Of a DNA stretch of 51,065 nucleotides, positions 18,099 through 44,135 are shown piece by piece. Source of the DNA: Longimicrobium sp. (GTDB lineage: Bacteria > Gemmatimonadota > Gemmatimonadetes > Longimicrobiales > Longimicrobiaceae); the NCBI RefSeq assembly GCF_035474595.1, contig NZ_DATIND010000134.1, forward strand, positions 1-51,065, given 5' to 3'. The translations under genes were made by a program, and so were the position numbers. Numbering within the stretch: position 1 is the first letter of the stretch; each line of letters begins with the position of its first letter. The notes below the pieces were generated by a model. It was not told the DNA's origin and ran no database searches. It was given only the letters and a program-made list of their open reading frames with translations.

Positions 18099-18148
18099 CG
18101 CCCGCGGGCTCCTCCTCATCCCCCGCTAATCTCCGGCGGGAAAGCGAA

Positions 18149-18174
18149 AAGGCCGCGCGGGGAAGCGCGGCCTT
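18149..18174 (-). terminator. Intrinsic terminator of the TTxxxxEE peptide gene
   Basis: Stem AAGGCCGCGC/GCGCGGCCTT, 6-nt loop, four Ts then TTTCG-like sequence on the minus strand; 27 bp after the stop at 18202. Confidence 0.85.
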
Positions 18175-18201
18175 CTCGTCGGTCCTTCGCGAAAGCGCCG
18201 T

Positions 18202-18384
18202 TCAGAACGCACCGAACGGGTTTTCCACGCCGCTCACCGAGGCAGCCTCGATGGGGTCTTCCTCGCCGACGATCATCGTGGTGGTCGGGTCTTCCTCGCC
18301 GACGGCCAGCGTGGTGGCCTCTTCCTCGCCGATGATGCTGGTGGTGCCATCCTCTTCGCCGATGGGCTTGGTGGTGGAAGGCAT
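18202..18384 (-). CDS. Graspetide-like (plesiocin-type) peptide with four TTxxxxEE units and no leader
   Basis: 60 residues. Four units with exact spacing follow the initiator: TTKPIGEE (4-11), TTSIIGEE (14-21), TTLAVGEE (24-31), TTMIVGEE (35-42). The TTxxxxEE pattern is that of plesiocin-type (group 2) graspetides, whose ATP-grasp enzyme links Thr to Glu by ester bonds. Here the core starts at residue 4, and an in-frame TGA at 18400-18402 rules out an N-terminal leader. The remaining 18 residues end ENPFGAF and could act as a follower. GGAG lies 9 nt before the ATG and a strong terminator follows, so it is a real single-gene unit. No ATP-grasp gene lies in the window. Modification is inferred. 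Confidence 0.75.
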   Translation of the reverse strand: MPSTTKPIGEEDGTTSIIGEEEATTLAVGEEDPTTTMIVGEEDPIEAASVSGVENPFGAF

Positions 18385-18469
18385 GGGTGTGTCTCCGTGT
18401 CAGGGGGGACGGGCGCGCGGCCCGGATTTGGTGGGATGCGGGTCTGGAGCCGCGCCGATGCCGGCGCGC

Positions 18470-43827: not shown

Positions 43828-44103
43828 TCACCCGCCGAAGCAGACGCAGGTGGGAGGCGTGCAGGCGAACTCGGTGTTCGGCTCGTAGCAGTAGTCGCCC
43901 AGGGTGCAGGTGCCCGCGCGCCCCGTGCAGTTGATGCACGTCTCGTCGCCGCCCTGCGTGTACGTGCCGCACGAGTCCATCCGGTCGGTGGGAAAGCACC
44001 AGGCTTCCGAGTGCGCCCGCACCGTGCCGCGCGCCCGCCTCTCCGCCGACGTCTCGAACGACTCCACCTGCAGGGTTTCGACGTCCAGGCTGATCTTCTT
44101 CAT
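43828..44103 (-). CDS. Cysteine-rich lanthipeptide-like precursor (pinensin-type leader)
   Basis: 91 residues from ATG 44103, with AAGG upstream; GTG 44133 is an alternative that would bury the leader. The leader [20 protein letters not shown] resembles class I lanthipeptide/pinensin-type leaders (KKxSLxxxxLxVESFET). [10 protein letters not shown] follows, then a core with nine cysteines (36, 45, 56, 59, 66, 72, 81, 86, 88) and many Thr/Ser ([27 protein letters not shown]). Dehydration and thioether formation are inferred; no LanB/LanC gene lies in the window. It sits alone between tpiA and secG. Confidence 0.78.
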
Positions 44104-44135
44104 GGAAGCACCTTCCGGGGGCGGGTTGGACACGC

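Follow-up and report, generated by a model that had tools for sequence, protein, structure and literature searches.

Graspetides are ribosomal peptides crosslinked by side-chain esters or amides, and the core of plesiocin, one of this class, is made up of tandem TTxxxxEE repeats. In microviridins, the leader motif PFFARFL binds the ATP-grasp enzyme, and many graspetide leaders share the motif Phhx(1,2)h, P-hydrophobic-hydrophobic-x-aromatic (PMC8939145). In fuscimiditide, the ThfA leader is likely recognised through its tetrapeptide RPFG, and when this leader is moved behind the core it still works, at half the native rate (PMC13003496). A C-terminal leader has been treated as an engineered, unnatural arrangement (PMC13003496, JACS 2026).

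The window analysed here, a stretch of 51,065 nucleotides from Longimicrobium sp., contains a gene that resembles several of these systems in part. With plesiocin and its enzyme PsnB (7drm, 7drn, 7dro, and 7drp) it shares tandem TTxxxxEE units and a single ATP-grasp enzyme, for which PsnB is the nearest solved structure. It differs from plesiocin, which has an N-terminal leader, in having a C-terminal tag and no leader, and in being unlinked to its putative enzyme. The engineered ThfA1 precursors of fuscimiditide (PMC13003496) likewise have the core first and a PFG-containing recognition sequence last. These are artificial, their 67-residue leader having been relocated whole, whereas the arrangement here is natural, the follower has 18 residues, and PFGxF is the C terminus. 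In common with the microviridins and other Phhx(1,2)h graspetides (PMC8939145) there is an ATP-grasp peptide maturase and a recognition-like motif of P-F plus an aromatic residue, but the motif is C-terminal and not in the first 30 residues, and the core is TTxxxGEE and not TxKxPSD; neither the PFFARFL leader nor the TxKxPSD core of microviridins was found in the peptide sequence. The bottromycin-type RiPPs (PMC10885120) also have a C-terminal follower and no N-terminal leader, but their enzymes and chemistry are unrelated.

The order of core and likely recognition sequence is thus reversed relative to the characterised graspetides that could be compared. A core of regularly spaced Thr, Ser, or Lys donors placed N-terminal to Asp or Glu acceptors, and a peptide maturase linked to such precursors in the genome, are both graspetide features that are present; the N-terminal leader, a defining feature of graspetides and of plesiocin, is absent from the window gene. 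The system resembles a plesiocin-type graspetide in its enzyme type and core, and because the leader is absent it is called a variant and not an ordinary graspetide. In a literature search, the core-first arrangement was reported only as engineered, with earlier notice in graspetide surveys being possible, and neither a graspetide paper naming Gemmatimonadota or Longimicrobium nor a natural follower graspetide was found. Searches for graspetides seek an N-terminal leader near the enzyme and could therefore overlook precursors that are orphans or have the core first.

Sequence features of the precursor gene

The gene is a minus-strand open reading frame at 18202-18384 (-), stop codon included, and encodes a 60-residue peptide, MPSTTKPIGEEDGTTSIIGEEEATTLAVGEEDPTTTMIVGEEDPIEAASVSGVENPFGAF. 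A sequence-only reading of this DNA had described four exactly spaced TTxxxxEE units, and these are borne out, starting at residues 4, 14, 24, and 35: TTKPIGEE (residues 4-11; 18352-18375 (-)), TTSIIGEE (residues 14-21; 18322-18345 (-)), TTLAVGEE (residues 24-31; 18292-18315 (-)), and TTMIVGEE (residues 35-42; 18259-18282 (-)). When the composition of the peptide was shuffled, none of 200,000 sequences had four TTxxxxEE units and seven had three. The translation also agrees with that reading in having an 18-residue follower after the last EE (residues 43-60; 18205-18258 (-)), ending in ENPFGAF. Based on a tail pattern search and on tail conservation, NPFGAF-COOH (residues 55-60; 18205-18222 (-)) is proposed to be a recognition tag. 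The GC content by codon position (0.60, 0.50, and 0.85 for positions 1, 2, and 3) has coding character. No model in Pfam or NCBIfam matched the peptide, and neither the tail nor a consensus core had a match among PDB sequences.

A ribosome-binding site, GGAG, is present as previously claimed (18393-18396 (-)), at a normal distance from the start. An in-frame TGA lies six codons 5′ of the ATG (18400-18402 (-)) with no ATG, GTG, or TTG between the two, which excludes an N-terminal leader, again as had been read. The proposal of an intrinsic terminator holds only in part. A strong hairpin lies 3′ of the gene (18145-18178 (-)), the region folding with -37.2 kcal/mol (z -3.4), but its T tract is weak and a consensus terminator scan called no site behind the gene, therefore an intrinsic terminator is only plausible.

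Homologous precursors

By searching 61 related genomes, using the tail pattern, and then reading locus by locus, 18 precursors were found in seven Gemmatimonadota genomes of one family. In all 18 the core begins 2-8 residues past the Met, and in seven, including the window gene, there is no alternative ATG, GTG, or TTG before the upstream in-frame stop. Together the peptides contain 68 strict TTxxxxEE units (shuffled mean 0.73, maximum 6), the commonest being TT-L-A-[VLI]-G-E-E. Every one of the 18 ends in [NDS]-[PA]-[FL]-[GS]-x-[FY], with P in 16, F in 17, G in 17, and an aromatic residue at the C terminus in all. When homologues are aligned, as the sequence-only reading had suggested, the TTxxxxEE spacing is kept and the precursors are leaderless, the syntenic orthologue included. 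Of the observations that would have spoken against that reading (homologues with leaders, loss of the spacing, or a genome with no ligase), none was made at the locus or in the family; N-terminal extensions are present in distant relatives in other phyla. Peptide matches in other families of the order had E-values of 0.1-1 and were mostly inside long unrelated reading frames, and were rejected as chance.

Some of the family precursors are short, with one strict unit and a cysteine-containing half unit. Short tagged peptides of this kind lie by the enzyme at L004:9920-10204 (+), L035:3034-3153 (-), L042:9828-9941 (+), and L043:9860-9982 (-), and have Cys within the units or next to them (TLACGEE..CEE); this Cys possibly forms an additional crosslink, such as a disulfide. 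An orphan, leaderless, 224-residue precursor at L040:7861-8535 (+) (G001:C133), where a short contig ends, has 13 strict TTxxxxEE units and the tail NPFGHY.

Association with ATP-grasp genes

An ATP-grasp gene of about 300 codons adjoins 13 of the 18 family precursors, at eight loci; the other five, including the window gene, are orphans. At these loci the enzyme is directly behind the tagged peptides, in the genome of the window (G000), G001 (two loci), G004, G006, G008, G009, and G015. Enzyme and peptides occur in the same seven of 21 family genomes (7/7 against 0/14, Fisher p 8.6e-6), although the p-value is indicative only because the genomes are mutually related. The tandem TT-x3-GEE pattern, searched for in DNA, gave 36 matches, all of them in enzyme-bearing genomes and confined to the family precursors and to the bromoperoxidase fusions described below; the backwards control gave none.

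The genome of the window has two such enzymes. The search for an ATP-grasp macrocyclase that the sequence-only reading had called for finds an ATP-grasp of the peptide-maturase type at G000:C24:32373-33266, directly behind two short peptides that carry the tag of the window peptide, which are also the other ENPFGAF-like open reading frames it had called for. The tail pattern has three copies in this genome, each in a family precursor (backwards control, none). The second enzyme, on contig C152, lies by a protein with no tag. In G001:C270, a single enzyme, 67 % identical to that of C24, is by both short and window-like multi-unit tagged peptides. Because the two peptides beside the C24 enzyme end in the same tail, this enzyme most likely acts on the window peptide in trans, on the simplest reading through the shared tag. 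Since the window gene is not beside an ATP-grasp gene, this pairing rests on the tag and on genome content; the genome is a draft of 163 contigs with 3.95 % estimated contamination, although in G008, too, orphans occur together with an enzyme. Earlier, a core-first graspetide and an orphan modified in trans had been offered as alternatives; the evidence from these genomes favours the two combined.

Proposed tag recognition

It is likely that the window gene encodes a natural core-first, follower-last graspetide, directed by its tag and modified in trans by the PsnB-like ATP-grasp enzyme of C24. With its four TTxxxGEE cores first, its 18-residue follower with NPFGAF last, and no N-terminal leader, the precursor would be a reversed one. 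The macrocyclase (G000:C24:32373-33266) would dock on the C-terminal NPFGxF tag and, with ATP, would join Thr side chains to Glu side chains within each unit. By analogy, NPFGAF resembles PFFARFL and Phhx(1,2)h as well as RPFG, from which we infer that the enzyme docks on the tag and crosslinks the units upstream, although the G in PFG does not fit the second hydrophobic position of Phhx(1,2)h (PMC8939145). The predicted product would consist of plesiocin-like hairpin bicycles, with up to two esters per unit and eight in total, from an orphan peptide modified by an enzyme that would also serve its two short neighbours on C24. The follower may be trimmed off or left uncut. The mature product is probably a multivalent peptide resembling a protease inhibitor.

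The enzyme alignment was also scanned against 84,980 species genomes, giving 33 loci in Gemmatimonadota, Cyanobacteria, Acidobacteria, Bacteroidetes, Proteobacteria, and Cerasicoccus. Outside the family, the precursors adjoining the enzyme often have at least 10 TTxxxGEE units, and the tail [PA][FL]Gx[FYR] is present at 25 of 28 readable loci, for example SPFGRY in Moorena, GPFGWY in Okeania, NPFGSF in a Thermoanaerobaculia MAG, and NPFGRR in Rhodobacteraceae. The three loci with no tag are all in Bacteroidota and each has an N-terminal extension. In cyanobacterial and alphaproteobacterial precursors, the TTxxxGEE units are preceded by an N-terminal domain of some 110 residues and followed by a C-terminal PFGx[YR] tag, and those of Aquabacterium have a leader-like start plus the tag. 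In the precursors tested, the domain had no match in Pfam or NCBIfam; it is shared by the precursors at L074-L080, L083-L085, L091, and L093-L099, the genes of which end just upstream of the ATP-grasp gene. The precursors of groups 34, 35, and 41 in PMC13097080 are long, repeat-rich, or large, and the cyanobacterial branch may be among them. With 25 of 28 tails conserved, no element outside the core is conserved as often as the C-terminal tag, the N-terminal part being variable. The N-terminal domain or leader-like start in many tagged relatives means that the tag might serve something else there.

Two further members of the system have core-like units and no tag. In the window's own genome, upstream of the second ATP-grasp gene, G000:C152 encodes a 646-residue protein (L066:8407-10347 (-)), residues 97-549 of which match vanadium bromoperoxidases (E 6.5e-98) and the last part of which reads TTAQTGEECPTTSPVGEESTYDYAGEESTYDYAGEETTYDLIGEESTADYYGEEN... 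The same pair of bromoperoxidase fusion and ATP-grasp gene is found in G008:C173 (fusion at L044:1596-3515 (+)). Both fusions have C-terminal tails of TTxxxGEE and STYDYxGEE repeats and are encoded directly upstream of a second ATP-grasp gene of the same clade, therefore the tag is not needed by every member. In each fusion, a folded enzyme may carry a graspetide tail that is crosslinked. A literature search found no graspetide-haloperoxidase system and no enzyme with a graspetide-like tail beside its own ATP-grasp gene.

These fusions and the three Bacteroidota precursors, all with the core and no tag beside enzymes of the clade, bear on the possibility that the peptide is a graspetide modified in trans by an enzyme that recognises the repeated core, the units being the most abundant feature, and that NPFGAF serves for export, as a follower-protease site, or for stability. 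This is considered unlikely, because none of the 18 family precursors lacks the tag, be they neighbours of an enzyme gene or orphans and with one unit or thirteen, and because it accompanies the enzyme clade in five phyla. The tagless members have an N-terminal protein part instead, and no common protease or transporter was seen by the enzyme at the loci inspected by reading. Recognition of the tag is therefore preferred for the window peptide. Somewhat better than an even chance is given to the broader proposal of a natural follower-directed class, in which one enzyme clade in at least five phyla would read a C-terminal PFGx[F/Y/R] tag. This would have allowed the precursors to shed the leader in Gemmatimonadota, to disperse over the genome as orphans modified in trans, and in two genomes to end up, tagless, as a vanadium bromoperoxidase tail.

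Enzyme identity

The six enzyme copies searched against NCBIfam match the ATP-grasp ribosomal peptide maturases of TIGR04187 with E-values between 1e-18 and 1e-22, short of the curated cut-off; for the enzyme itself this is the best match (1.7e-20, below the curated cut-off), with RimK at 4e-5. In a profile search the nearest PDB sequence is 7drm (9e-30), an entry titled PsnB in the fold search. An AlphaFold2 model of the L069 enzyme, from a named relative (pLDDT 92.8), has PsnB as its top match by both Foldseek and VIA-align (Z 22.6, 26 % identity). The ATP-grasp catalytic residues of PsnB are retained, and K133, K172, Q204, R213, R235, D269, K271, E282, and N284 of PsnB are kept in all 40 clade members. 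The clade is separate and far from PsnB, on a long branch with about 26 % identity; several inner forks of the tree are weakly supported, therefore no order of gain or loss is claimed.

When folds are compared, RimK with substrate (Z 21.5) ranks just below PsnB (Z 22.6), therefore the function of the enzyme is not settled by the fold alone. Such RimK- or LysX-like ligases act on protein C termini, and the enzyme might then add residues to the C-terminal carboxylate of ...GAF, leaving TTxxxGEE uncrosslinked. This is very unlikely, as neither RimK nor LysX is the best sequence match, the peptide-maturase models scoring far better, and the motifs D-x-K and N-x-S-x-M-F are common to the enzyme and PsnB. 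Likewise, such a ligase leaves unexplained both the strict TTxxxxEE spacing and the variation among F, Y, and R at the C terminus.

Conservation of the orphan locus

The window gene stands alone. It is flanked at one end by a TerC-family gene and at the other by genes for a BadF-type kinase and a protein of the glucosamine-6-phosphate-isomerase type. A similar peptide adjoins the same kinase and isomerase genes in a second species (G008:C170). The two coding sequences are 78 % identical, compared with 59-61 % in the flanks, and there are 11 synonymous codon changes; in the aligned units every TT and EE is kept, as is every residue of NPFGAF. The syntenic orthologue is also leaderless, with AAGGAGG just ahead of the core. 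The absence of an adjoining ATP-grasp gene, and a number of units unlike that of the syntenic copy, could be taken as signs that the gene is an orphan copy in decay, or one left unmodified, and now lacks a function. This is highly improbable, since the identity of the coding sequence above that of the flanks, the synonymous changes, and the kept motif residues point to a conserved orphan and not to debris, and since start, ribosome site, and stop are all intact. A misread start concealing a longer N-terminal leader, for which there are the N-terminal extensions of some relatives in other phyla, has a near-negligible probability and is rejected for the window gene by the upstream TGA, barring a sequencing error in the contig, six more family members likewise being not extendable and the orthologue having its AAGGAGG directly before the core.

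Elsewhere in the window, a small open reading frame at 43828-44133 (-) has a weak match to the pinensin lanthipeptide leader model NF038180 (E 4.8e-4, below the cut-off), and similar open reading frames are present at L041:18340-18591 and L043:15628-15945.

Conclusions

If the preferred reading of a tag-directed, core-first graspetide is true, the N terminus of a substrate would stay free when an ATP-grasp crosslinker is directed by a short natural C-terminal tag. The tag would then be a compact tool with which to cyclise proteins as well as peptides. As the bromoperoxidase fusions suggest, crosslinking of a folded protein's tail by such an enzyme may already occur in nature.
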